DNA of 47,035 nucleotides from an uncultured Eubacteriales bacterium (GTDB taxonomy: Bacteria > Bacillota > Clostridia > Peptostreptococcales > Anaerovoracaceae): positions 1 to 47,035 of the forward strand of contig ONAY01000020.1 in NCBI GenBank assembly GCA_900315895.1, read 5' to 3'. The notes under the pieces are model-generated. The model saw nothing but the letters and a program-made list of their open reading frames with translations. It had not been told where the DNA came from and ran no database searches. Position 1 is the stretch's first letter; every line of letters starts with the position of its first letter. Shown piece by piece: positions 3,969-32,278 of this stretch. A program made the translations under genes and the position numbers.

Positions 3969-4202
3969 TTACTCTAGCTCGCCACTGACTATCGTATCTA
4001 ATTCCTTCGCTATACTGCCAAAGTCTTGGTTCAGATCTAACGTTCTCACCCAAATTGTATTTCCGCCCAGTTTGTACCTATTGTCTGGCTGAATTGGCTC
4101 GTCAGTTCTTGCATACAAAAGCATTCCAGATACATTATTTGGGTTTAACCCTTCTTTTGCCGTTTTGTTTTTTACATATGTGAAAATTTGATATAGATTA
4201 CT
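3969..4202 (-). pseudogene. mcrC: McrC C-terminal remnant
   Basis: A frame of 77 codons ending in TAA at 3971..3969. Its product reads SNLYQIFTYVKNKTAKEGL, then VSGMLLYARTDEPIQPD, then TIWVRTLDLNQDFGSIAKEL. This is the conserved C-terminus of McrC, the endonuclease partner of McrB in modification-dependent restriction. Everything N-terminal to it, including the PD-(D/E)XK core, is missing: upstream the sequence passes into a truncated CRISPR repeat, a spacer and the array. The remnant cannot be functional. It shows that an McrBC operon once stood here and was cut by a deletion or recombination ending in the array. Confidence 0.8.
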
Positions 4203-4209
4203 CTCAAAC
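4199..4209. repeat. Truncated terminal CRISPR repeat at mcrC junction
   Basis: Eleven bases (TACTCTCAAAC, plus strand) are identical to the end of the array repeat. They lie exactly 30 bases, one spacer length, before the first complete repeat at 4240. The remaining 25 bases of this repeat are replaced by mcrC sequence. It is the leader-distal, oldest repeat. Confidence 0.75.
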
Positions 4210-4239
4210 TTTTTCAGCGTGTTTCGGCGGTCTGGCGCA

Positions 4240-6719
4240 GTTTGATCATCCTATGAAATTACACTACTCTCAAACAGTTTGCTAATATTGGTGAAGTTCC
4301 TGTTCGTTTGATCATCCTATGAAATTACACTACTCTCAAACATTTTAGTAGACACAAGAGAAAAGCCGAAAGTTTGATCATCCTATGAAATTACACTACT
4401 CTCAAACTATACATGGGGTGTTCACTTTGGGATGCAGGTTTGATCATACTATGAAATTACACTACTCTCAAACCATCCTCTCTGCGATGCCGACCAGCCC
4501 CAGGTTTGATCATCCTATGAAATTACACTACTCTCAAACATTATGATTATATTCCCTGTGGCACTTGCCGTTTGATCATCCTATGAAATTACACTACTCT
4601 CAAACCAAAGGCTGGCAAGCTCGCTACTCCGTCCAGTTTGATCATCCTATGAAATTACACTACTCTCAAACCGCTTTCCTGTTTTTTCATCATAACCAAT
4701 GGTTTGATCATCCTATGAAATTACACTACTCTCAAACATATACCATTCGGTAGTTGGCTCGGTCTGCGTTTGATCATCCTATGAAATTACACTACTCTCA
4801 AACCCCATCGTGGTGTGCTGCGCTCTTTTCTGGGTTTGATCATCCTATGAAATTACACTACTCTCAAACATTTCTTCCTTATCTTTGTTCCTCTACTTTT
4901 GTTTGATCATCCTATGAAATTACACCACTCTCAAACTCCTGTTTAGGTTCTTCCTGAGCCTGTGCGGTTTGATCATCCTATGAAATTACACTACTCTCAA
5001 ACGCAAGAGTGCCGGAATGCCTACGCGAAGAAGTTTGATCATCCTATGAAATTACACTACTCTCAAACTTCAAAGCTCATGTTGTTTACACTCATTATGT
5101 TTGATCATCCTATGAAATTACACTACCCTCAAACTGTGGGATTCTGCATTCCGAGATGAACACCGTTTGATCATCCTATGAAATTACACTACTCTCAAAC
5201 TGGAGGACCTTGCTAAAATTGATAGCAGATGTTTGATCATCCTATGAAATTACACTACTCTCAAACTCTTGAGAAGGCTGGCGTAAGCGAGAAGCTGTTT
5301 GATCATCCTATGAAATTACACTACTCTCAAACCCCTCTCTTATTATATGATCCATGGGTGGGTGTTTGATCATCCTATGAAATTACACTACTCTCAAACT
5401 TCAATTCATCAACTATGAAAGAATATGAGTTTGATCATCCTATGAAATTACACTACTCTCAAACTGTGGGATTTTGCATGCCCATATGCACACCGTTTGA
5501 GCATCCTATGAAATTACACTACTCTCAAACTCCAGATTCTTGATATATACTCCCATATCAGTTTGATCATCCTATGAAATTACACTACTCTCAAACTGAT
5601 GTGACGAGCAGGTGCTTGGGCAGTCCGTTTGATCATCCTATGAAATTACACTACTCTCAAACCCAACTCCTGCATGATCGGGTACAGGTTCTGTTTGATC
5701 ATCCTATGAAATTACACTACTCTCAAACAATGCTGTCTCTTTTGACAACACTATTACGGTTTGATCATCCTATGAAATTACACTACTCTCAAACATAGCC
5801 TGATAGCCTCTTGAATGTTGACGGGTTTGATCATCCTATGAAATTACACTACTCTCAAACGTCTCGGCATAGAACTTCTCCATGGTTTGAGTTTGATCAT
5901 CCTATGAAATTACACTACTCTCAAACGGCGAAAGCATCGGATTAGAAAGAAATACAGTTTGATCATCCTATGAAATTACACTACTCTCAAACCTACATAT
6001 GCTCGTAATGATGAAACCATAAGTTTGATCATCCTATGAAATTACACTACTCTCAAACAGGTCCGGCTTCACCTATGCCGATAAGGTTGTTTGATCATCC
6101 TATGAAATTACACTACTCTCAAACTCAGCTCTGGGTCGTTTAATATGTCCACGAGTTTGATCATCCTATGAAATTACACTACTCTCAAACCAGGCAAGAT
6201 GCAATGCCACTACAGACTCGGTTTGATCATCCTATGAAATTACACTACTCTCAAACATTTCGATGTCCTTCTTACTACATAGTTGCGTTTGATCATCCTA
6301 TGAAATTACACTACTCTCAAACACTAACTATGATGATACCATCTGGGACGGAGTTTGATCATCCTATGAAATTACACTACTCTCAAACCGATAACATCCA
6401 ATGTGTATATGTATGACTGTTTGATCATCCTATGAAATTACACTACTCTCAAACATGACCAAGCAGTGTCCCAATATTGTTCAGGTTTGATCATCCTATG
6501 AAATTACACTACTCTCAAACAATGTCAATTACATTTAAAGGCTTTGACCAGTTTGATCATCCTATGAAATTACACTACTCTCAAACTGAAGTCCTATGAT
6601 AAAAGTGCCATACAATAGTTTGATCATCCTATGAAATTACACTACTCTCAAACTTACCTACAACGGCGGCATTATAACGGTATGTTTGATCATCCTATGA
6701 AATTACACTACTCTCAAAC
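4240..6719 (-). CRISPR. Type II-A CRISPR array, 38 repeats
   Basis: I count 38 full repeats of 36 bases starting at 4240 and ending at 6719. They are separated by 37 spacers, mostly 30 bases (29-31), and one more spacer (4210-4239) lies beyond the first repeat. In the crRNA direction (minus strand) the repeat begins GTTTGAGAGTAGTG and ends GGATGATCAAAC, the usual type II-A form. Four repeats carry single changes (starting 4438, 4901, 5099, 5495), all in the leader-distal half; the newest 18 are identical. Spacers at 4408, 5135 and 5465 appear to target one gene (see findings). Because 66 is divisible by 3, the array makes false repetitive reading frames. Confidence 0.98.
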
Positions 6720-6782
6720 CTCAAATTTGAAAAATGTACTGCGATACATGGCATCTCATAGGATTTGCTAACCTTTATCACT
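6720..6782 (-). promoter_or_regulatory. CRISPR leader
   Basis: 63 bases between the csn2 stop and the first-transcribed repeat. On the minus strand the leader ends CAAATTTGAG directly against the repeat GTTTGAGAG. ATTTGAG at this junction is the known type II-A leader-anchoring sequence recognised by Cas1-Cas2 during spacer integration. This fixes the array polarity: new spacers enter at 6719 and the oldest lie near 4240. No convincing promoter was seen in the leader; it may lie inside csn2 or the array may be read from the cas operon. Confidence 0.85.
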
Positions 6783-7448
6783 TTATATTACGCACAGATC
6801 AGCGTCAATTATAACTCTTTTGGTTTCCATGATGTACTTTCTTTCCAGGCTTTCTAGAAATAAGGTCCTTAGTCCCTTCATAGATAAAGTCTGTATAAAC
6901 GCTAACATTTCATCATCATTGAAATAACTACGGAAATTTATAAAACAATATAGCTTTTCCCCATCATAGCGATTGATCAACTCCATGTAATCTATTATTG
7001 CTTCCAATGGGGTTTCATAATCCACAGATATCCTTGTCCCAATAGCACGGACTATCGAATCAAATGAGAGTTTAGTGTAATCAAGGAACACACCCTGCTC
7101 CTCCCCTAAACCATCTAGATACTGTTCTATTTGTGCCAGTAATTCCTGTCCTTTGACATAGAACTGCTCACTTATGGCAGTTGATTCCATGTTCGAATAG
7201 ATTCTGTTAAGCAATGCTTTGCTATTGATATCAAAGGGGCATATATCATCAAACAATTCTACATGCTTTCTAAGCGTAACAGGTTTATCATTAATTGATA
7301 ATATTAAACTGCCATTTTCCCCTTCCAGTTGATGTTTAAAATCCTCTACAGTCTCCCTAAAGAGCTTTTGATTTTCAATTACGAATTCAATTGCATCTCC
7401 TTCTTTTATGACCAGGGGTTCACTTAAGAAGCTGTGTAATAATTTCAA
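6783..7448 (-). CDS. csn2: Csn2, type II-A adaptation protein
   Basis: 221 residues, the common short Csn2 size. Csn2 forms a ring that binds DNA ends and joins Cas1-Cas2-Cas9 in spacer acquisition. The start MKLLHSFLSEPLVIKEGDAI and the position between cas2 and the leader support the call. The start codon is TTG overlapping the cas2 TGA (TTGA), so translation is probably coupled. It is the last gene of the cas operon, 63 bases from the array. Confidence 0.93.
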   Translation of the reverse strand: MKLLHSFLSEPLVIKEGDAIEFVIENQKLFRETVEDFKHQLEGENGSLILSINDKPVTLRKHVELFDDICPFDINSKALLNRIYSNMESTAISEQFYVKGQELLAQIEQYLDGLGEEQGVFLDYTKLSFDSIVRAIGTRISVDYETPLEAIIDYMELINRYDGEKLYCFINFRSYFNDDEMLAFIQTLSMKGLRTLFLESLERKYIMETKRVIIDADLCVI

Positions 7449-7765
7449 AGCACTACCATCCTTTCATCCGTGTCCAACACATCACCATGTCTTGTTCCCA
7501 CGATGAAATCAATACCAGCAAATTGTTTCTCTGTTATAGTTAATGCTTGTACCAACCCCTCAGGCGGCTTATTCTTGCGAACTATATCTAAAACCATATC
7601 CTTTGCAGTAGAGTTTAGAACTATTTTCGAATATACAGACTCCTGCATCATGACAAAGCCTGTCTTGATTAGCATCTTTCTGAATTTGCGATACTCCCTT
7701 TTGTCATTCGCAGTATCTGTTGGTAGATCAAAGAAAACTAATACCCTCATAAATCTGTAACTCAT
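7445..7765 (-). CDS. cas2: Cas2, adaptation nuclease-fold subunit
   Basis: 106 residues, normal length. The first strand MRVLVFFDLPTDTANDKREY carries the conserved Asp of the ferredoxin-like fold. Cas2 dimers bridge two Cas1 dimers to integrate spacers. It overlaps cas1 by four bases upstream and csn2 by four downstream. The ATG sits behind GGAGAT inside the end of cas1. Confidence 0.95.
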   Translation of the reverse strand: MSYRFMRVLVFFDLPTDTANDKREYRKFRKMLIKTGFVMMQESVYSKIVLNSTAKDMVLDIVRKNKPPEGLVQALTITEKQFAGIDFIVGTRHGDVLDTDERMVVL

Positions 7766-8631
7766 ATCTCCGCAAATTTAATAATTGAAGGGTCCTCATC
7801 ATTTACAGCATCAAATACACTTTTCACATATATCTTTATGGCATTTAGAAGGGTTTGCCTTGACATGTCTATCAAAATGAGATCATTTAGCATGCTTGCC
7901 AATTCTCTTTTTTGCTCTGTCCCAAACTCAACAATGTTCATTCCAACTACCATCCGATCCACAATGACTCTGAACGGCTCCATCAAATCGCTAGAAAGAT
8001 TATATGGATTAAACACATTGTCATGGAACAAGCCAATTTGGGAGCAATAGCCATTTATCGCAACTTCCCTATTAACTGCTGACAGTATAAGCCCATATCC
8101 ATAGTTTAGAGCAGCATTAATCGGTGAATCTTGCCCACGAGAAAAGTCCATCCCAAATATGGCATTAAAATAAACTTTAGCCGCATGTCCTTCACGATTA
8201 GTACTGTCGCAGAATTCAAGTTCATCTAAATAACCCATCAACATAGTGCACTCTTTGATATGCCCTAAATCATTTAGATGCTTTGCCTGGTTTCTGATTT
8301 TTTCAGCAACAATTCCGGTCCATATCAGCCCCTTTTGTTCAGCAGTCCATCCCATTTGTATCCGTAGCTTTCTGGAGCTATCATGGCTACCATAGTACAG
8401 TTCTAATTCTCCATAGGGACTTCTTTTTTCATCACAGAAGATGATTCTAGTCTTATTCTTTGACAACGCGGACAGGAGAGCACCTGTTATAGATATAGCA
8501 GGGCTCTCCAGCACCAATATGGCAATTTCGTCAAGAAAGACCCGCCTAGTATCCTCTCCACGTACGACCATATATCCCATGTTTAGGTCTAATTTGCATC
8601 TCTGTGATATTATGACAGTGCGCCAGCTCAT
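7762..8631 (-). CDS. cas1: Cas1, CRISPR integrase
   Basis: 289 residues, typical for type II. The expected metal ligands are visible: Glu-147 in NREGHAAK, His-203 in IGLFHDN and Glu-218 in LMEPF. The NYGYGLILSAVNREV helix before the His is also family-typical. The ATG overlaps the cas9 TGA by four bases. It acts with Cas2, Csn2 and Cas9 in acquisition. Confidence 0.97.
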   Translation of the reverse strand: MSWRTVIISQRCKLDLNMGYMVVRGEDTRRVFLDEIAILVLESPAISITGALLSALSKNKTRIIFCDEKRSPYGELELYYGSHDSSRKLRIQMGWTAEQKGLIWTGIVAEKIRNQAKHLNDLGHIKECTMLMGYLDELEFCDSTNREGHAAKVYFNAIFGMDFSRGQDSPINAALNYGYGLILSAVNREVAINGYCSQIGLFHDNVFNPYNLSSDLMEPFRVIVDRMVVGMNIVEFGTEQKRELASMLNDLILIDMSRQTLLNAIKIYVKSVFDAVNDEDPSIIKFAEI

Positions 8632-11600
8632 AACAGTTCTTTAAGATTTATAGATTTACTTTCAAATAAACCGCTTGCAGATTGATCAACAATCCGCACG
8701 TCAGTATAATTCCAATTGCTTAGATTAGCACTTAACCGTAAATCTCCAATTGCTTTTGCTTTATCCTTTAATAATGAGACATCACATGTCCCTGTTCTAT
8801 TGGTTTTGAGGTATGAAATCATCTGGTAAAGAATTGATAATTGTTCCTCCGTTGTAAACGAATTAAACAAATCCATATTCTCCTGTTGAAAAACTATTCT
8901 TGCTCCTGGCATCTTACAATATAGTCCGTTGATTTTGTTCGCAAGTTCACTCAGCAACATAACGTTTTTTTGCCTATCTATACCATCAAATACAACATCT
9001 ATTATATAGTTTTTATTCTCCTTTTTCTTTTCTATGACCCTATCTATACACTTTACATATCTTGCGGCCTCTTTTGAATACTGACATGTCATTAGCGACC
9101 TTGTTAGTATTCTAGCTCCACCAGAATTCTTACCTGCCAAGCATACTCTAAATCCATCCAATGAGAGAACGGTATTAACCTTCAGCACCCTGTCTCCTAG
9201 TGGGAACTGTATATTCGAAGATTTACTGCCAAGCACATTCTGAACGTATTCTAAGGCAAATTCTTTGTCTGTTTTGAATCTATCGGCCACAAGCAGATCC
9301 ACTGGGATAAAGGTTAATTCCCTCTTGTTCTTGAGCTGATGGCTGACGAGGGTAAAGAACGTGGCTGTTGGCTTGTTATATCCTCCATAAACAGCCGTAT
9401 TCTCTCCCTTCTTTAATGGCATCAATCCATCAGATGCTTTAACAGGTTGCATGTCAAAGAAGCCACCCTTTTGGCATGTCTGGTACTTCGTCAAATGGAT
9501 GTGATCATTCGACATCATTTTTTCAACGATGGGGACATGCTTTTCTGGTGCCCAGGTCTTTCCATCTTTTGTCGGTGTCCCAAATATTATCCTATCATTA
9601 AGTGAGTACCTGTCGCTTGAGACATCAAAGAAACGCTTCGTAAATTTAGTATTATACACATTGCCTGCAACGATATTCAGATAAGCGTCTTTTGCATGGT
9701 GCGTATCATTGATTGATCTACACTTTACGAGTTCCAAATCCTTCTTTGCCACGTTATCCAAGTGTAAATTCAGTGCTTTATCTTTGATATCTCCAAAATC
9801 ATGTCTAAACTCAGAAGCTAAAGCAGCTTTGACAAATACGATCTCAGTTGAATCTCCAAACTTGCTTCCAAGCAGTTCTGCTATTGCCTTAGTCGACTGC
9901 CTCGTCTCAACGAGCTGTCGATTGATAAAGCCCATCTTCTCGTCATTACTGAATCCATTCGACCTGGTCAATCTCTTCAATTTCTCATCATTAATCAAGC
10001 CCTTGCTGTTCAGCGATCTCCAATAACCGTCCATCTTGATACGCCACTCTGCTGGCAGCGGATATGTATCACCTTTTTTACCGTTCTCGGTAGAATGAAC
10101 TAGAACCTTATTGTTCGTAAGACTATCATCTTTAACGTATGCTCTGGGCCATATGTGATCTATATCACAGTATTGAGTATTGTTGATACTGCTTAGATCT
10201 ATTGGCTCTCCGCAGTACATGCATTTACCCATTTGAAGATAATACAAATACAGTTTCTGGCTTTGTAGTTTCTTGTCGCTCTCAATACCTAATTTATCCA
10301 ATTCAGCAGACAGTGCTTTCGCATCATCTGTCTTTACCGCCTTGTACAGATCCTTCAGCTGGTTCGTCCTTGAGACAGTTCTCTTGTTTTTCTGTTCTTC
10401 TGTGGCTCCACGCGCCATCTCGATGAATATTTTCTTTGGCGGATGTTTTTCTGCTTTTACGATATCAGATACCACGTCCAATGTGCGGTATATGGGTCTC
10501 TTAACAGCGTTGGAGATCCCCATTTCCTCTAATTTTTCGTTCAGCGATTTCTGGACTGAGAACGCTTCATCCCTTTCTTTTTTAATGATCTCTGCGAACG
10601 TATACCTGTCTTCATCTTTGATGATCTGCATCAGATTGTCGTTCGTATTCCACAAGAAATACATTACAGTACCAATCTCACCGGTCTGCTTGCTTACGCC
10701 CTCAATTCCGTTAAGCAGTTCTGCAGATAATCGTCCAAACTCACTGTATTTGAGCTTTGAAACATATTTGAGATCACCTTCTCCATTGTCGAGAGACTTA
10801 AATTCATTACTTAACCACTTCCTGAATCTATTGGAGTCCTCTGTGTATGTGGACATGGCAATGATCCGCTCTACATCTTCCTGTGTCAGTTTCTTTGATT
10901 CCAGCAGTCTCTGGAAGTCGACCCATGACTTCAGCGAAGCATTTATGTTTATATCAATTCCGCCAACTATGCTGTCATTCACAGAAAAACCACTCACATT
11001 GCACTTTAGATAATTCTTAAGTGCTTTCATGGTGACTTTTTTATTTTTTCTAAACAAATCATTGTAGATGGCCTGTTTAAGTTCTACCGAGATCTTCTTT
11101 CCATCGATGGTGATGTTATTTATCTCGTTCAGAACCGTATACCTGGTGTAGAGAAGTGACCATCTCGGTAAAACGTCCTTTCCGGGCAAATATGAACACG
11201 TGTTGGTCATCCTATCTATGAATGCTTGCTCACTTTTCTCAAAGTCGACCTTCTCCTGGATGTTCCATGGGAGGATCTTTCCTTCTGCCTTCCTTTCAAG
11301 CCATGCGTAATCACTGTGTGAATTAAGCGGTCCAACAAAATATGGAACTCTGAAGTTAAATATTGATAGAAGTTTGTCCTCAACAGTAAGTCCATCCTCA
11401 TCCTTATTGGTCAAGAAAGCATACTGAGATGAGGCTTTGCCTAGCAACCTCTTCAATTCAGCGTAATATAACTGTCTGGGGATAACTCTATTATCCCCGG
11501 TTACTTGTTTAGGCATAAATAACCCCAATTCAATGTCTGAAAGCATACGCTGTACGCACTCTTTGTCATTTGGGGTGAGTTTATCAAGATCTATGTCGTT

Positions 11601-12812
11601 AAGTATTCCCTTTATATTCTTATAGAAGTCCTCTTTACTTGCAGATTTAGGCAGTTTCTTGTTGCCTGATACAGACTTAAAGTTCCCAACATATGCTGAA
11701 TAGCTATTGTCAGTTCCTTCTCTAAATAGGTCATCATATTTGGCATTCACATATGTCTTTATAACATGCTTCAAGTCAACAAGATCTTGTTTATGCTTCT
11801 TATATATGTCGACCTTGGCTTCAGAAATATAGGTCCTTCCATTCTGTAGTTCCTTAAGTACAGCACTGTCGTAGATCCTCTTCATGATAACTATCAGTTC
11901 TGCGTAGTCCCCAAGTGTTGCCAATACAGCCTCGAGGCTCTCTTCATCCATTCTTAAAGAGATCTTCTCCGTGCTTTCCGACAGCTCATCGTCTGCAATG
12001 AATACTTTCTTGACTTGAGTTTCTCCTCCTGCAAAAAGCTTCAAAAGGGACGAAATAGCTATTGGGAATGCTTCAGGATCGTCCTTTGGAGCCTTACCCC
12101 CGAAGATCATTTCCGCAAACTGTTTCTCTTTGTCTGAGATTCTTATTTTCTTGTTCAGAATGTCAGCAAATGCATCTGTTGCGCAACTCCACGGTTGATC
12201 AAGCCCTCTATCGACAAACCAACTCTTAAAGTCATCGTAGAGAGGTCCGATATCTGTAAGAGCTTCAATATTATTACCGTCTATTTCACTCAAGAAATGT
12301 CCTCTATGAGCAACTAGCCATGCACAAGCCAAATAGTAAAGCCTGATATCTTTGGCCTCTCCGGTATTATCCAGATCCATTAGATCCACGATCAGATGAT
12401 GGATCGTGGGATACTTTTTATGAAATTCTTTGTCGCCAAAATCCTCGTCAGAAAAAATGCAGTTGGTTTCGTCAACCAGTGAAGGATCAACCGTTCCTTT
12501 GTCTCCCTTGACTAAAGCACTAGCCTTGATCCTATTGTAGAACGAGGGATCAACCTTTGCGATTTCAGATGCAAATAGTTCCTGGACCAGTTTCACTCTT
12601 TGCTGACGTCTGTCTAATCTTCTTCTGGCAGTTCTAAACGAGCGCCTCTCTGCCGCTTGCTTTCCAGCTTCAAATAAATGTGCACCCCACATGGGCTCTC
12701 CCTTAAACTTAAGAAGCATATAGTCTGTATCCGTTACAGCCCAGCCGACTGAGTCAGTACCGATATCGAGTCCGATATAGTAGTCGTTGTTAATTCTCTC
12801 ATTCTTGCTCAT
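8628..12812 (-). CDS. cas9: Cas9, RNA-guided DNA endonuclease (type II-A)
   Basis: 1394 residues, the long type II-A form. Catalytic sites look intact: RuvC-I YYIGLDIGTDSVGWAV with Asp-16; an Arg-rich bridge helix RRSFRTARRRLDRRQQR; RuvC-II IFIEMARG with Glu-798; an HNH domain with CMYCGEP and DIDHIWPRAY (His-886, then NNKVLV); and RuvC-III THHAKDAYLN with His-1039 and Asp-1042. Cas9 cuts DNA matching the crRNA when bound to the tracrRNA encoded just upstream. The ATG at 12812 has AAGGAGAGG about nine bases upstream. It heads a tightly overlapping cas9-cas1-cas2-csn2 operon. No strong cas9 promoter was found; transcription may enter from the genes upstream, because no minus-strand terminator separates them. 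The PAM cannot be read from the sequence. Confidence 0.98.
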   Translation of the reverse strand: MSKNERINNDYYIGLDIGTDSVGWAVTDTDYMLLKFKGEPMWGAHLFEAGKQAAERRSFRTARRRLDRRQQRVKLVQELFASEIAKVDPSFYNRIKASALVKGDKGTVDPSLVDETNCIFSDEDFGDKEFHKKYPTIHHLIVDLMDLDNTGEAKDIRLYYLACAWLVAHRGHFLSEIDGNNIEALTDIGPLYDDFKSWFVDRGLDQPWSCATDAFADILNKKIRISDKEKQFAEMIFGGKAPKDDPEAFPIAISSLLKLFAGGETQVKKVFIADDELSESTEKISLRMDEESLEAVLATLGDYAELIVIMKRIYDSAVLKELQNGRTYISEAKVDIYKKHKQDLVDLKHVIKTYVNAKYDDLFREGTDNSYSAYVGNFKSVSGNKKLPKSASKEDFYKNIKGILNDIDLDKLTPNDKECVQRMLSDIELGLFMPKQVTGDNRVIPRQLYYAELKRLLGKASSQYAFLTNKDEDGLTVEDKLLSIFNFRVPYFVGPLNSHSDYAWLERKAEGKILPWNIQEKVDFEKSEQAFIDRMTNTCSYLPGKDVLPRWSLLYTRYTVLNEINNITIDGKKISVELKQAIYNDLFRKNKKVTMKALKNYLKCNVSGFSVNDSIVGGIDININASLKSWVDFQRLLESKKLTQEDVERIIAMSTYTEDSNRFRKWLSNEFKSLDNGEGDLKYVSKLKYSEFGRLSAELLNGIEGVSKQTGEIGTVMYFLWNTNDNLMQIIKDEDRYTFAEIIKKERDEAFSVQKSLNEKLEEMGISNAVKRPIYRTLDVVSDIVKAEKHPPKKIFIEMARGATEEQKNKRTVSRTNQLKDLYKAVKTDDAKALSAELDKLGIESDKKLQSQKLYLYYLQMGKCMYCGEPIDLSSINNTQYCDIDHIWPRAYVKDDSLTNNKVLVHSTENGKKGDTYPLPAEWRIKMDGYWRSLNSKGLINDEKLKRLTRSNGFSNDEKMGFINRQLVETRQSTKAIAELLGSKFGDSTEIVFVKAALASEFRHDFGDIKDKALNLHLDNVAKKDLELVKCRSINDTHHAKDAYLNIVAGNVYNTKFTKRFFDVSSDRYSLNDRIIFGTPTKDGKTWAPEKHVPIVEKMMSNDHIHLTKYQTCQKGGFFDMQPVKASDGLMPLKKGENTAVYGGYNKPTATFFTLVSHQLKNKRELTFIPVDLLVADRFKTDKEFALEYVQNVLGSKSSNIQFPLGDRVLKVNTVLSLDGFRVCLAGKNSGGARILTRSLMTCQYSKEAARYVKCIDRVIEKKKENKNYIIDVVFDGIDRQKNVMLLSELANKINGLYCKMPGARIVFQQENMDLFNSFTTEEQLSILYQMISYLKTNRTGTCDVSLLKDKAKAIGDLRLSANLSNWNYTDVRIVDQSASGLFESKSINLKELL

Positions 12813-12813
12813 C

Positions 12814-12842
12814 TTGACAAACCTCTCCTTCTGTGATACATT
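12814..12842 (+). promoter_or_regulatory. tracrRNA promoter
   Basis: TTGACA (12814-12819), a 17-base spacer and TACATT (12837-12842) on the plus strand; transcription should start near 12849. The -35 box lies between the cas9 ribosome binding site and the cas9 ATG on the other strand, so this promoter and cas9 translation initiation share the same bases. Confidence 0.82.
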
Positions 12843-12848
12843 GTCTAT

Positions 12849-12967
12849 GGTAAGTTTTTATCCTATGGACTTACACTGCGAGTTCAAATAAAAATTTATT
12901 CAAATCGTCGGCAATGCCGGCCGCACAGGAGTGCATTGAGCATCTGCGCAAGCAGATGTTTTTCTTT
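12849..12967 (+). ncRNA. tracrRNA
   Basis: The plus-strand sequence at 12854-12889 (GTTTTTATCCTATGGACTTA onward) is an imperfect copy of the reverse complement of the CRISPR repeat, so its RNA is the anti-repeat. Sharing is strongest at ATCCTATG, TTACACT and TTCAAA. After it come a nexus hairpin (CGGCAATGCCG, about 12909-12919), a small stem GCAC-AGGA-GTGC (12923-12934), and a terminator stem CATCTGC-GCAA-GCAGATG followed by TTTTTCTTTT (12941-12967). The gene is divergent from cas9. Exact ends are inferred from promoter and terminator. Confidence 0.88.
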
Positions 12968-13006
12968 TATATTTTGCAGTAGATTTCTCCACTGGCTTTG
13001 ATCACG

Positions 13007-14722
13007 TCAATACTCCGGTAGCAGTTCTTTCAAATACTCCCTCAGTTCATCATTACATGCATAAATGTATGTGCCCTTGATTCCTCTGGTCATAAGTGTC
13101 AGATAAATATTTGTGAGATAATCCCGGAGTTCCTTTGGCTTGAAAGCAACCCCCGCCTTTCCTTGCTGGTCATAATAACTGTCCTTATCAGCATATATTT
13201 CATGAGACATGGGGTCATACTTTATATCTTCCCCTATTATGACACCGCAGTAATTCAGATCGTACCCCTGGACAGTATGGATACATCCAATCTCATTGAT
13301 TGCCGTCTTAGTGCTTATCCAGTTCTCATAGGTCATATTCCAGCGGTATTTTTTGCCCTGTACAACGATGGTATAATCCTGAGTGCGCTTTCTGTCCCAT
13401 GGCCAGGCGTACCCTGCAACGACTCTGCAAAGACCCATCTCTTTTTCTTTGGCCTTTATATGCTCGATCATCAGGTCGCAGTCCTTGTACAAGCGCAGAT
13501 CATAATTGATCACATCCTTACGGGTGGTGCACTTGCCGCTCAAAATATCCTTCAGATATGAGATGTACGAGTTGCCGCCTTGACACCTCCATTGGGTCGA
13601 AAGCCCAGTCTGGACCACAGCGGATGTATAGCGGTTTTCCAGGATATCATAAAACTCTTTAGTAGGAATATCGCAAGGCCTTACCATCTGTAGTTCGTCC
13701 CTGAACAAAATCCTATTGTTGCTGCAAAGCATGATCCAATCCAACTCAGTGCCAGTATACTTGTCTAATCCCAAATTGGCATTGCATTGGTCAAACGTCC
13801 TATAATTGCTGAGATGCCCGTGGTTACGGCACTTTAGACGATGTGATTCATCAACTATAAGAAGATCGTATTTCTTCCCTGTTCTGAGGTAGTTCTTCAC
13901 TACCTCGGCAGGAGTCATCACCATTTCTGGTTTAAGATTCCTAACGCCGCCAAAAACATCCCTTAAAGATATCATCAGTGACTTCTGAGGAATGACAATT
14001 CCTATGTTTTTGATCCCTTCTATCGATGTTGCAGCGCTGACTAATTCAGTATATTCGTCGATTTCTGTCTCTTCATCTTCCGGGATCTTCACTGCCAAAT
14101 CAGCAAAAAGCTTCATGAGATATATTGCAAGAATCGTCTTACCTGTGCCGGCTCCGCCTCTTACCACTATACTTGCACCACCAGGCGAATCCTTGTATTC
14201 GGCAAAGGCTCTAAGTATCTCCTTCTCGGCCTCAACCTGATCTTCACCCAATATCTTATATGGTGAATACTTATATAGTTCACTGTTTTCAATTGAATCG
14301 ATGGAGTTCTTGACTAACCCTTTGCGTCTAAGTTTCTCCCAAATGTCTTTGAACTTTTCCTCGTACTGTTCTTTGCTGTAATAGGCGTGATCTCTGATGC
14401 CGCTATTGCCATTCTGCAAACTGAACTTTCCATCAGAAGACATATACCTGATAAGGTACGATTCCAGATCCAGGATCACCGATTTATTGAATGTCTTGTC
14501 ACTTACGATATGTACATCATCAAGGCTTTGCCTATCCGGGTTTTGAAGGTGTTGTTCAAGACGCCTATATGCATTCAAAGTTTCACCAACGTATGCTTCT
14601 TTAGAGTTATTAAGCACGTAAACGACCGGCCAATTGGTACCAACATCATTTCCTCCATGATGCAGTTCCTTGACCTCCTCTAATGATGCTGCGTTGAATG
14701 CATACTTATCAATGCTAACCAT
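13007..14722 (-). CDS. GIY-YIG nuclease plus DUF2075 helicase-like protein
   Basis: 571 residues. Residues about 32-95 form a GIY-YIG domain: VVYVLNNSKEAYVGET, then Arg-53/54 in AYRRLEQH and Glu-87 in DLESYLIRY, the positions of the catalytic Arg and Glu. Residues about 150-570 are a DUF2075-type P-loop ATPase related to superfamily 1 helicases: Walker A RGGAGTGKT (189-196) and Walker B YDLLIVDESH (DESH 291-294). Later motifs are TGLSTQWRCQGG and IHTVQGYDLNYCGVIIG, and LTMTRGIKGTYIY lies near the end. The ATG lies two bases after the MazG-like gene, so the two form an operon. It probably acts on nucleic acid. Its place beside CRISPR-Cas and other defence genes suggests phage defence, but that is inference. 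Confidence 0.85.
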   Translation of the reverse strand: MVSIDKYAFNAASLEEVKELHHGGNDVGTNWPVVYVLNNSKEAYVGETLNAYRRLEQHLQNPDRQSLDDVHIVSDKTFNKSVILDLESYLIRYMSSDGKFSLQNGNSGIRDHAYYSKEQYEEKFKDIWEKLRRKGLVKNSIDSIENSELYKYSPYKILGEDQVEAEKEILRAFAEYKDSPGGASIVVRGGAGTGKTILAIYLMKLFADLAVKIPEDEETEIDEYTELVSAATSIEGIKNIGIVIPQKSLMISLRDVFGGVRNLKPEMVMTPAEVVKNYLRTGKKYDLLIVDESHRLKCRNHGHLSNYRTFDQCNANLGLDKYTGTELDWIMLCSNNRILFRDELQMVRPCDIPTKEFYDILENRYTSAVVQTGLSTQWRCQGGNSYISYLKDILSGKCTTRKDVINYDLRLYKDCDLMIEHIKAKEKEMGLCRVVAGYAWPWDRKRTQDYTIVVQGKKYRWNMTYENWISTKTAINEIGCIHTVQGYDLNYCGVIIGEDIKYDPMSHEIYADKDSYYDQQGKAGVAFKPKELRDYLTNIYLTLMTRGIKGTYIYACNDELREYLKELLPEY

Positions 14723-24068: not shown

Positions 24069-27000
24069 TTACTCAAACAGCACGATCTCAGCTTCGGGAT
24101 CTGCCATGATGGTCCTGACGTTATTGTCGGTGACCAGTGTGGGTCCGCCGAATGTGACGCTCTTGGTGGCGCCGGACTCCTGTACCCACTTGGCAACGTT
24201 TGCGATCATGTCATCTCTGTCCATGGCAAGCAGTACGGGTGCTCCGATGACGGATGCAACTGCTCCGCCGCTCAGTCCGTCCGGGAAGTTCTGGCCGTAT
24301 ACCAGAACTGCTGTCTCGCACTCGCCCGGGAAGAACTCGTGGGCTACCATGTAGGATGTCTCGTAACGGTTGTCGCCTTCGAAACGCTTGATGCCGCCGT
24401 CAGCAACGAAGTTCTTGAGGTCAGTCTCAACAGTTGCATTCACAGCGCTTGTTCCGCCGACGATCCATGCCTTCTTGGGCTGGGCTTCTCTCAGGTAATC
24501 CTGCTGGTCAGCAGTGAGCTTAGCGCCTGCAAGAAGGATGGGCTTGCCTACGGAGCTGGTGGAAAGTGCATCAGCGAATTTTGTAGCGGATGCTACCAGT
24601 ACTTCGCTTGCATCTCCGCCGAGAGCATTTCCTTCTTCAAGGATCAGGATGTTGGTCTCGAACCTGTTGGCTCCGCCGAGACGCTTCACGTCGAATGACG
24701 CATTTTTCAGCTGCTGTTCAAATGCCTCTGAGACTACGCTGGTTCCGCCAAGGAGGTAGACCTTTCCTGCGGGCTTAACATTATGTCCGATATATTCCAG
24801 TACAGCTCCTTCGTACATCGGGTGTACCAGAAGGATGGGTGCTTCAGCGACTGCAGCCAGATAGCTTCCGCTCAGTGCGTCTGCGAAGTCTCCGCCGTAT
24901 GCTACCACAACGGTATCGAACTGGTCGATTCCTTTGACTGTCTTCATGTAGTTGGCAGCCTGGAATGCTGTGTCGTAACGGCTGGAGCCCATGACTCTCA
25001 GATGCGGGATCGTGGGTTCTGCGGGCTTCTCTGTGTTAGTGATGGTTCCGCCGTCCACTGCGAAGGTGGCGTCCTCAGCACCGTAGCTTACTTCGTATCC
25101 GGGCCATGTCTCAGTCTCAGTTACGGTGTAATTGATCTCGACAGGCGCGCCGTTGACCAACTTATACTTGGGAAGTCTTACGAATACTGCAGTCCAGGGC
25201 TCATGCTCCTGACCACCCTGCATGATCGGATTGCCGTCTTCCTGTCCTGTAAGAGTTACGGCGAATCCGGTGTCCTCTCCGTCAGCATAGAGTGTGAACT
25301 TGACCGCTGCTCCCTCAGGTGCTGTGGTGGTTCCGTCAGCGTTGACCCATGCCTTGGATACGGTGACGCTTGTGATCTCCTGAGTATTGGTGATCGCTTC
25401 GCCATTCAGTGCGTAGTTCTGACCGTTGGGATAGCTTGTGGTGAATCCCGGAACACTGCCGATCTCTCTTACTGAGTAGACGATCTCGTTGCCGTTTGAA
25501 TCGAATTTGTCAAGTCCGGCGAAGGTTGCTTCCCAAGGAGCTGTCTCTGAAAGTTCAGGATTGCTATTTGTGGAATCTTTTACTCCATCGAGGCTGATGG
25601 TATATCCGGTATCAATGCCGTTAGCGTTGAGTCCGAATGTTACGGTCACACCCTGCGGGGCTTCCATATCCACAGTATCCCAAATCTTTGAAACGGTGAT
25701 GTCTACTGTGGGTTCTTCAACCTTGCAGACCACGTCTGCCCTGTTCCTGATACGGATTCTCGGGAAGGGTCCCTCGGGTGCGTTGAAGGTGTTATCGTAG
25801 GAGGAGATACCTGTTACGGTGATCTCAGCGCCAACTTCGCAGTTCTTAACTTCATTCTGGGTAGTGATGTATCCGTCGATGAATACTCTTGCAATGTCGC
25901 CCTTGCTGTCCTCGACCATGATGGTCTGGATCAGGCCGTTGACCACTTCGAAGCTCTGAACTGTACCCTTAACTGTTACCAGTGAACCAAGCACGGACAG
26001 GTTGTTGATCATCTCTGCACTGACCTCTGTAGGTGTGATCTCGCCGGATCCGATGACCGCGATGGACTCTACCTGAAGTTCAGGTTCTTCCTGATAGAAG
26101 TCTGTGTATCCTTCGATGTGGACCTTGTCACCGATCTTGTATTCTCCGGAAACGGGGAAGCAGCAGATGCCGCCGGTAGCGTCCTGAACGTAGATGCAGT
26201 CGAAGAATGCTGTATCCTTGTCATAGCCGGAAGCGTTGGATGTTACGATACCCTCGATGGCGTATTCGTAACCGGCTTCGGTCTGGGAGTTGACTACGTC
26301 GATGTCGGTTACCGGAAGGTCGCCCTCGTTCTCACGTACGGAGAATGTTACGTCCTTGGAGTAGGTGACTTCCTTGTCGCCTACTGTGAATACTGCTGTT
26401 ACCGTAACGGTCATTCTCTTGGCAACGGTGGGTGTGTACTCGAAGGGTACTGTGATCTCGTCGCCTGCAGCGATTGGGTGTCCGTCGGTGTCTGTCCCGA
26501 TAACTGTGCTTCCGTCCACTGTGTAGGTAAGTGACTTAACGTTTACAGCGTCTTCTTCGTTATTGAAGAGTGTGGTGTTAATGGTCATGGGCTGGTTCAC
26601 CAGCGGCTGATCTTCTGCAACTTTCACTTCCTTGATTCCAACTGCTACATCAAGTCCTGTCCAGATAGGTGCGGTAACTGCGATGTCGCCGTCTTCCTGA
26701 GTGACTCTTACGAAGTAGTAGCCGTATTCAGGTGTGAGTTCTGCTGTGAACAGGCCTTCTGCCAGTTCTTCTGCACTGTCCCAGGTCTTAGCCACGACTC
26801 CGCCGTTAGCTACGAGCTCGACCTTAGCGGTTCCGTCATAGTTGTTGGGATCGTAAACTGTGATAACTGTTTTCAGTGTCTCAGGGGTGTTTTCCTCTGT
26901 GAAGATGGTGCCCATGGGCTCATCATTCATTGTGTAGCTGATCTGAAGGTTCTTGTCCTCAGTAGCATAGACTCTCAGGTCGCGGATAGCATTGTAGATG

Positions 27001-30000
27001 CCTTCCTCTGAGAAGTCATTTGTAAGGATAACGTCTCTTGCGTCGTTGGCATTACCCCAGCGACCCTTGTGGTTATCCTGGTTGTTGGTGGGAGCCAGGT
27101 GCCATCCCTGATCCAGAGCCAGTGTGTACTGCTCATAGCTGGGATAGTATCCGCCTGCTCCGATCTGGCCTTCGCCGTTTCCTACCTCTACCAGGAACAT
27201 GTGGGCGTCAGTCTCCTCATTCCAGTATGAGAAGTCTGTGAAGTTGCCGAATGTTGTTCCCGGGTGGTTGAACTGGCTGAGAGACTCACCCTTGTTGATG
27301 GTCTCATAGTACAGTTTCATACCGGCGTCGTTGGTCTTGTTGTTCAGAAGCGCATTGTTTCTGGAAACCAGACCGTCTGAATCGTAGGTATTGATGTGGC
27401 CGGGGCCGCCGGACCATGTCATTTCGAATCCGCCGATAGCGATCACGTCGGACTGCTTATCGTTGAATGCTGCGATGGTCTCCTTGTAGGTGTTCCAGTC
27501 AGCCAAGCTTCCTGCTGTCATGAGGCTCTTGTCGTTAAGAGCGTCTGCCGGGTTGGCTGCGTTGGGAGCGTCGAAGTAGTTGGAGTGGTCTGTGAAGGCC
27601 ACGAACTGAACGTTGGCGCTCTCAGGAAGTGATCCGATGTAGTCCAGAGCTGTCTCCAGTGTACCGGAACCGTCGGAGTATGTGGTGTGTGAGTGGAGCT
27701 GTCCGAAGTACAGCTGGTAGTCGGAGATTCCTACTGTGAAGTTCCAGGACTTCTCTGCGGATACTCCGTCTTTTCTTGTAACGGTCATCAGTACGTTTAC
27801 ACGGCCGTCTTCCATGTCTTCAGTCGGTGTGTAGCTTAAGATGCCGTTCTCGTATACGATGTCTGTGATGACTTCATCGTTAAGCTTAAGTGTGAAGGTC
27901 GGCTCCTCGCCTACGTTACCTACTCTTGCGGAGACCACAGGTCTCTTGTCATCCCTTGTCTGGGAGTTGGGAGCAGGTGTGAGATCCTCGAAGAAGGGCT
28001 CATCAACGATGGCCACTGTCTTGGATCCTTCGTATTCGATGCCGTAGCTGTTTACTACGTTTACGTTGAGCTCAAAAGATTCAAGTCCTTCTTCAACGTC
28101 GATCTCAGAAGCAGGAATCGTGAATGTGTAGTTCTTGCCGTCGGAAGATACCTCGTAGTCTGTGATAGTTCCGGTCTTTGATCCTGCTGTGAAGGTGATC
28201 TCGATATCGGTGATCTCATCTGCAAGGTCATCCAGAGTGATGGTCACAGGGAAGTCTTGCTCGATGTATCTGGAGTCTTCGCAGTCGAAGATCACGCTGG
28301 GATCCTGGACAACGCCTTCGTGGATATCAGTATCATCTGTTACCTTGTAGAAGTCGAAGTAGAAGATGCTTGTGTCTTCTGCGTTTGCCTTGTATGTCCA
28401 GCCTGAGAATACACTTGAATAGTATTCGATGCAGACCGGGGATCCCTTGTAGTTAGCTGTTTTGTTGAATACTACGTATCCGTCGCTGTCAGAAGGCTTG
28501 GACAGATACCACTTGGCGGTTCCCGGAATGCTTCCGTCTTCGTTGGCTTCTACGAAGAGAAGTTCTTCTTCATCGTTTGAAGCAAGATACTTGCCGCCCA
28601 CCTCGAAGGTGTAGTAGCGTCCGGTGGTTCCAACTGTGAATACATAGGCTCCGTTTCCGGGATTAGCCTTATCGCCAACGATGGTAGTCGGGATAGCATC
28701 CATTGAATAGTTGGCTTCCTTGAAGAGTCCTACGGAAGCTTTTGCAGCATCGCTGTACATTACGTACTGCTCGCCTGCTGTAAGGATTCCGTCCCATTCA
28801 CCGTCATCATACTCGGCTACTGCGTCTGCAGGATCTACCAGGTAGAACTGAAGAGCGTAGTCTGTGCTGGTGATCTGGTCTGGATACGGAGCATATCCGG
28901 AGAATACCTCTCCGCCGTTACGGATAAATGCCTCAATGTAGACATCACGGCCGCTTATCTTAAGAGTGCTGCTCTTGATATACCAGGTATGGTTCTGAGA
29001 GTTGAAGGGGCTAAGTACCCATTCATTGACGGTTTGCTCATCGTAATTTGTGTTGACTGTTAATTCTGCGTATGTCTTGCCGTTGACTACGCTGGGCCAT
29101 ACAGAGATACTGTCGCCTTCCTTATCATTGGAGTAGAAGGAGTATGTTCCGTTGTCGTTTACTTTGACTTTCCAAACTAAGTCTGATGTGAAGTCCTTGA
29201 CCTTGCCGTCTTCAACGATGGCGGGGTTGGCCTTAAGGTACCAGTCTCCATTGGCCTTTGAACTGATAGCTGTCTTGTGAGTCGGGCTGTAGATGGCAAC
29301 TGTTGCGCCGTCTGTCAGCTGGCTCAGGCTTGTTACCAGATCTCCCTCAACTGCCGGGCCTGAAGGTGTTTCAGGCTCTGCGCCCTTCTTATAGAAGGTG
29401 ATGCCGAATGCGCCCTTTTCGGGAGCATTGGAGGCATATACGGTAAATCCGTTGAAATACTCGAGATGGAAGTTTCCATAGTTGTTCGACCATCCGTTCA
29501 GATACATGTAATAGTTGAAATCTTCAGAATCAGGTCCTGTCAGCTTCCAATTAGTGTATGTACCGTCGGTCACTACAAGGTTGTTGTAGGTTCCGCTTAC
29601 AACTCCGCCCAGGGTATTGGTGCCCTGTGTGAATGTGTATGTGCCGTCCTCATTCTTGGTCACTGTCCAAACAACGTTGGTGTTGTCTGTGGTGATCACA
29701 CCGTCTTTAGGTGTAAGTGCAATGCCCTGAACCTTGTGGCTCACGATAGTATTGCCAACCGCCATGCCGCTTCCTGCGTTGTAGAGGATGACTTCGTCGC
29801 CTGTGTTAAGTGTGCTTGTGAGGCCGAAGGTGTCGCCTGTGGGTTCAACCGGTTCTGTGCTCTTCTTTACGAGATAGAACTGAAGACCGTAGTCTGTCTC
29901 GTTGAGTCTGTCCTCGGTTGAATAGCCACAGAATACAGGCTTAGTTGTTCCGCTGATATTCTTGTTATATGCTTCGATATAGCAGTGTCCGTAGCTAGTT

Positions 30001-32234: not shown

Positions 32235-32278
32235 TACATACTCCTCCACTTAAGTTGGCTACCCCTTTATGTCCTACA

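Follow-up and report, generated by a model that had tools for sequence, protein, structure and literature searches.

Genomic context of the CRISPR array

The window analysed here is the whole 47,035-nt stretch of contig ONAY01000020.1 from an uncultured Eubacteriales bacterium of the family Anaerovoracaceae. It carries an array of clustered regularly interspaced short palindromic repeats (CRISPR) beside a set of cas genes. Three spacers of this array are related to each other and probably derive from one site in an endolysin gene of tailed phages. The locus comprises the following features.

4240..6719, minus strand: CRISPR array with 38 repeats (36 bp each) and 37 spacers
4187..4239, minus strand: degenerate terminal repeat and spacer-like stretch, left limit approximate
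6720..6782, minus strand: presumed leader side, separating csn2 from the first repeat, by position only
6783..7448, minus strand: csn2 (PF09711, E 4.9e-22)
7445..7765, minus strand: cas2 (PF09827)
7762..8631, minus strand: cas1 (PF01867)
8628..12812, minus strand: cas9, 1394 aa, with REC, HNH, RuvC, bridge helix and protospacer adjacent motif (PAM)-interacting domains
12855..12975, plus strand: candidate trans-activating CRISPR RNA (tracrRNA), anti-repeat from 12860, terminator-like hairpin and a T run toward the 3' end

The locus is a type II-A CRISPR-Cas system, a known kind of system. The genes cas9, cas1, cas2 and csn2 are all encoded on the minus strand, and each product scores above its Pfam cut-off; the csn2 product, the signature of type II-A, reaches 79 bits (PF09711, cut-off 23.7). 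The duplex of the tracrRNA candidate with the repeat is predicted at -32.6 kcal/mol, a value that ties the lowest of 328 45-nt tiles (12001-14500, both strands, tracrRNA site included). The candidate lies on the plus strand and carries the anti-repeat, and fits the minus strand as the direction of the CRISPR RNA (crRNA). Most spacers are 30 nt long (n=33), three have 31 nt and one has 29 nt.

The degenerate terminal repeat, ending CTCTCAAAC at 4209, is found beyond the array together with a 30-nt spacer-like stretch (4210-4239). This side is presumed to be the old end and the csn2 side is taken to be the leader, both on the basis of the usual type II-A architecture. With this orientation, the spacer at 4408 would be the oldest of the three related spacers, followed by those at 5135 and 5465. 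Within the leader, ATCTCATAGGAT (6753-6764) is similar to part of the repeat.

Three related spacers

The three spacers, named below by their first coordinate, are:

4408..4437, plus strand: spacer encoding YTWGVHFGMQ in the sense of the endolysin gene (translation)
5135..5164, minus strand: spacer encoding GVHLGMQNPT in crRNA direction (translation)
5465..5494, minus strand: spacer encoding GVHMGMQNPT in crRNA direction, same register as 5135

Spacer pairs were scored as matches minus two per mismatch, with 30 shuffled spacer sets, compared on one strand only, as control. Spacers 5135 and 5465 are identical at 25 of 30 positions at offset 0 (score 15), and 4408 matches 5135 on the opposite strand at 17 of 21 positions (score 9). 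Only these two pairs, from a scan of both strands, exceed the highest best-pair score of the one-strand shuffled sets, which is 7. The match of 4408 with 5465 (15/21, score 3) is inside the shuffle range. The positions of the three spacers, their translations and the 25/30 match in one register had been given in an initial annotation of the window; the array analysis bears them out.

The five changes between 5135 and 5465 are located at positions 10, 16, 19, 21 and 25 from the PAM side, and the nine PAM-side bases are identical. Three changes are silent (V, G and Q codons) and two fall within the single L/M codon; third codon positions hold four of the five. The initial annotation was thus right about the kind of change, and its count of four becomes five. 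When the five changes were relocated randomly, an equally good best open frame was obtained in 3.1% of 3000 trials. For this reason, the codon argument alone is modest, and the target match decides.

Four of the 38 repeats carry a substitution. Three of them (4438-4473, 5099-5134 and 5495-5530) each directly flank one of the three related spacers (hypergeometric 0.009, post hoc), and the fourth is located at 4901-4936.

The probable target, an M15-family endolysin

A degenerate WGVHxGMQ pattern matched one IMG/VR contig, the tailed-phage contig L005, where YNWGVHFGMQN is encoded in frame within an M15 endolysin gene beside a holin gene. The match includes the flanking Y and N. Against L005, the peptide of spacer 4408 scores 58, compared with 40 for the best of 74 shuffled spacers. 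The crRNA of this spacer is antisense to the endolysin gene. The peptides of 5135 and 5465 score 38, which is below the top shuffled value of 40 (the second is 34); they are assigned to the endolysin, as seems likely, via their overlap with 4408 and the L005 match.

The protein encoded in L005 is an M15-family endolysin of a lysis cassette and a predicted peptidoglycan hydrolase. It matches the M15_3 profile at 38.3 bits (curated cut-off 23.2), and its AlphaFold model shows the M15 zinc-peptidase fold. H70, D77 and H117 are invariant in nine aligned proteins, and the H of FVHWD is variable. H70 and D77 have the H-x6-D spacing and are putative zinc ligands, by analogy with M15 enzymes. The close homologues (12 loci) share the segment GEAGLYxWGxHxG; these loci are closely related, some of them nearly identical (L012/L013 and L017/L018), and were picked by the motif search itself. 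The shorter GEAGLYxWGxH pattern has one match in each of 10 contigs and occurs once in the endolysin.

The initial annotation had proposed homologues of one conserved protein gene as the source of all three spacers. Such a gene exists, as the score of 4408 and the segment shared by the homologues show. From the composite peptide YTWGVH[FLM]GMQNPT proposed there, the WGVHFGMQ portion contributed by 4408 was recovered in the L005 endolysin, and GVH[LM]GMQNP was found nowhere beyond the window. Plasmids had been named as an alternative source, of which a blastn search with the whole array gave no sign (two phage records at E 3, one plasmid at E 8). With a 39-base query, blastn against phages returned chance-level matches only (31 records, best E 0.6).

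M15 relatives were also searched for in bacterial genomes. By whole-genome profile searches, 10 of 296 family genomes and 44 of 393 order genomes contain such relatives, and the window's own genome has none; the GEAGLYxWGxH motif is absent from the M15 loci examined out of these family and order genomes. When GTDB contigs were searched with a profile of the endolysin alignment, none of 86 stretches could be confirmed as a relative. Spacers carrying the endolysin motif were not found among 201 distinct spacers of related arrays (best score 30, shuffled best 35).

Other spacers and flanking motifs

Two further spacers have close nucleotide matches:

5531..5560, minus strand: spacer matching L005 at 27/30 and L014 at 25/30, where a small gene (MGVYIKN...) starts
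6191..6220, minus strand: spacer matching the terminase large subunit gene of a same-genus genome (G019) at 28/30

Spacer 5531 neighbours 5465 on its newer side, and both L005 and L014 also carry the endolysin. The terminase locus is presumably part of a prophage. The 3' flanks of these protospacers are CCAGCC for 6191 and GATGCC and GAAGCC for 5531, with CC at positions 5-6 in each case. The 3' flank of the 4408 site in the 12 homologues reads N-A-R-N-C-C, again with CC at positions 5-6, because the Gly-Leu codons are shared.

A match of spacer 6455 to L079 with six mismatches was taken as chance. Peptide matches of spacers 4672, 4870, 5663, 5729, 6059, 6125 and 6521 score 33-38, within the shuffle range. 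Elsewhere in the window, an open reading frame of 2726 residues is located at 24069-32249, known from the list of open reading frames only.

Survey of related arrays

To place the array among its relatives, a Csn2 search was used, which matched 17 of 345 family genomes (16 over the cut-off) and 24 of 388 order genomes. Twenty regions were taken first and five dropped (L112, L115, L124, L125, L126), as no array of at least two spacers was detected; four of ten further regions (L178, L180, L184, L185) were dropped since no array was detected. The survey covers 21 genomes including the window, 19 with a Csn2 match and two (G010 and G028) with a similar array only.

Of the first 15 genomes (251 spacers, 3,435 pairs within genomes), five contain diverged same-strand pairs, namely the window, G015, G076, G082 and G165. 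There are ten such pairs, all at offset 0. In addition, three identical pairs (two genomes) and two shifted antisense pairs were found, the latter being 4408/5135 in the window and a 16/20 match near chance level in G076. Across genomes, 27,940 pairs of this set contain two weak shifted matches and no same-register pair. The six further genomes (96 spacers) show within their arrays only exact duplicates and one weak antisense match; the 27,525 cross-genome pairs of this set include none in register. Block duplications are found in two of the six, as multi-unit repeat-spacer duplications in L179 (G427, 9425-10217) and L176 (G484, 7793-8123).

Tandem repeats within the targeted gene, with many near-identical protospacers per gene, account for the cluster in G165. 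Its four spacers (L118; 9705, 9969, 10233 and 10299) are variants that fit nonapeptide repeats of the NTGDWSAAT type, and phage genes carry the peptide TGDWSAATNT in tandem copies. Its pattern matches 45 IMG/VR stretches, many of them several times; the open reading frames inspected, those of 8 of these stretches, show repeat runs, and the gene in L131 belongs to phrog_4433. Therefore, 4 of the 21 genomes remain.

Targets of the G015, G076 and G082 clusters were searched for and none was found. Two spacers of G082 (L122; 10022 and 10087) match, in peptide comparison, the major capsid protein of one Microviridae record, both with a score of 35 (best of 34 shuffles, 28); weak blastn matches (E 4) had preceded this match. 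This suggests that single-stranded DNA microviruses may be CRISPR targets in this bacterial family. The score of the G082 cluster peptide against a microvirus scaffold protein (24) is within the shuffles.

Relocation of the changes gave an equally conservative frame in 19.5% of trials for G015, 8.4% for G076 and 0 of 3000 for G082, compared with 3.1% for the window. The results for G015 and G076 are not significant singly. The combined P for keeping the frame in the four genomes is about 1.3e-4 if G082 is entered as 1 in 3000; leaving G082 out gives 0.019.

Origin of the related spacers

The explanation favoured here, at a probability of roughly 85%, is that spacers were acquired repeatedly, anchored by the PAM, from related phages at a site of the endolysin gene under protein constraint. 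The locus would have taken spacers at least three times from one 40-base stretch of this gene, once in antisense orientation (4408, closest to the end presumed to be old) and twice in sense orientation in the same register. The constrained protein sequence GEAGLYxWGxHxG may keep the site recognisable in relatives while synonymous changes accumulate, and PAM-anchored capture could direct repeated acquisitions to the same register. Relatives of one phage group would thus have infected the lineage repeatedly, with 5135 and 5465 probably taken from the same gene in unsampled relatives. Repeated sampling of related phages, at least three times and twice in the same register, had been put forward in the initial annotation and is supported as the best explanation. 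Chance, an acquisition hotspot or priming may each account for the resampling.

A number of results weigh against this explanation. The degenerate pattern GVHxGMQNP has no match in IMG/VR, none in GTDB species contigs when preceded by YTWG, and matches the window alone among 197 family genomes; a looser search of IMG/VR (WG[VIM]HxGxQNP) did not find the exact protospacers of 5135 and 5465. Spacer 4408 and L005 share only 23 of 30 nucleotides. L005 and its relatives carry no host assignment, and the motif is missing in more distantly related M15 proteins of genomes (L032-L044, L085-L110) and of a microvirus (L020). At the sense register of 5135 and 5465, CC at positions 5-6 is found in 0 of 12 homologous loci, and in all 12 the 3' flank lacks a motif common to the other candidate protospacers.

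The same-register pair could also have arisen inside the array, by copying of one repeat-spacer unit and subsequent drift of the copy. The exact duplicates and block duplications in related arrays fit such copying, as does the constant offset of 0 among diverged same-strand pairs. Yet only 4 substitutions were counted over the 1368 bases of the array repeats (copies with at most three mismatches, degenerate terminal repeat left out), as opposed to 5 in 30 between the spacers, and drift after duplication is therefore implausible. Moreover, same-strand pairs differ by 5-7 changes or not at all, with the exception of the G165 cluster (2-5), for which target repeats account; the changes tend to hold one reading frame (combined P as given above), and duplication cannot produce the shifted antisense spacer 4408. 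Copying with drift is thus highly improbable. Nearly as improbable is an origin of the pair from two copies of the motif, as paralogues or internal repeats, in one phage genome. This fits the four-variant cluster of G165, but the endolysin motif is single in each of the 10 matching contigs and within the endolysin.

Primed or guide-directed renewal, in which an older, mismatched crRNA leads Cas9 to a related phage and the adaptation machinery takes a new spacer at or near the site, is unlikely, though not negligibly so. It would fit the diverged same-register pairs inside arrays and their absence from both cross-genome sets, as well as the identical nine PAM-side bases of 5135 and 5465. Priming by a partially matching spacer has been proposed for type II-A of Streptococcus mutans, where 61 of 111 spacers lie within 2.5 kb of the partial match (PMC8265633). 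However, those spacers are spread across kilobases, and the same register is not addressed in the passages considered. Absence between genomes may merely reflect hosts meeting different phages, and seed conservation is not general, as changes fall within the nine PAM-side positions in G015 (2, 6, 9), G076 (6, 9) and G082 (5). A stricter form, in which in this lineage of type II-A systems the mismatched crRNA guides Cas9 and that very protospacer is passed to Cas1-Cas2-Csn2 for exact-register renewal, is a long shot. If true, such self-updating of spacers would account for the presence of diverged same-register pairs within arrays (4 of 21 genomes, the fifth being due to target repeats) and for their absence between genomes.

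Under repeated acquisition from related phages, the window would provide a natural case of three spacers in one array that record one protein-constrained site. As the probable target the analysis names an M15 endolysin, from a group of phages with no more than 11 loci found in IMG/VR. Most worth following is the recurrence of diverged identical-register spacers in this group of type II-A arrays, which raises the question whether such arrays renew mismatched memories at one and the same protospacer or resample acquisition hotspots. The titles and abstract openings listed in literature searches do not mention same-register synonymous spacer pairs. In Oenococcus, spacers have been described that differ from related phages by one to four mismatches (PMC9867325).

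Comparison with known systems

The L005 endolysin resembles M15 phage endolysins such as Ply500, LysB4 and the T5 endolysin (Peptidase_M15_3) in its family profile, H-x6-D spacing, fold and holin neighbour. It differs from them in being at most 24% identical to the 50 solved structures listed and in its GEAGLYxWGxHxG segment, which is not covered by Pfam's best stretch (27-81). As in primed adaptation of S. mutans P42S (PMC8265633), one array holds an older spacer with a partial match together with newer ones from a related phage. The new spacer here, in contrast, is found at the identical register, and the evidence comes from sequence only. Compared with type II-A CRISPR-Cas systems in general, the locus has the same gene content and order, a 36-bp repeat, 30-nt spacers and a tracrRNA candidate beside cas9. 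No difference was seen in the machinery; what distinguishes this array is that 3 of its 37 spacers appear to converge on one site.
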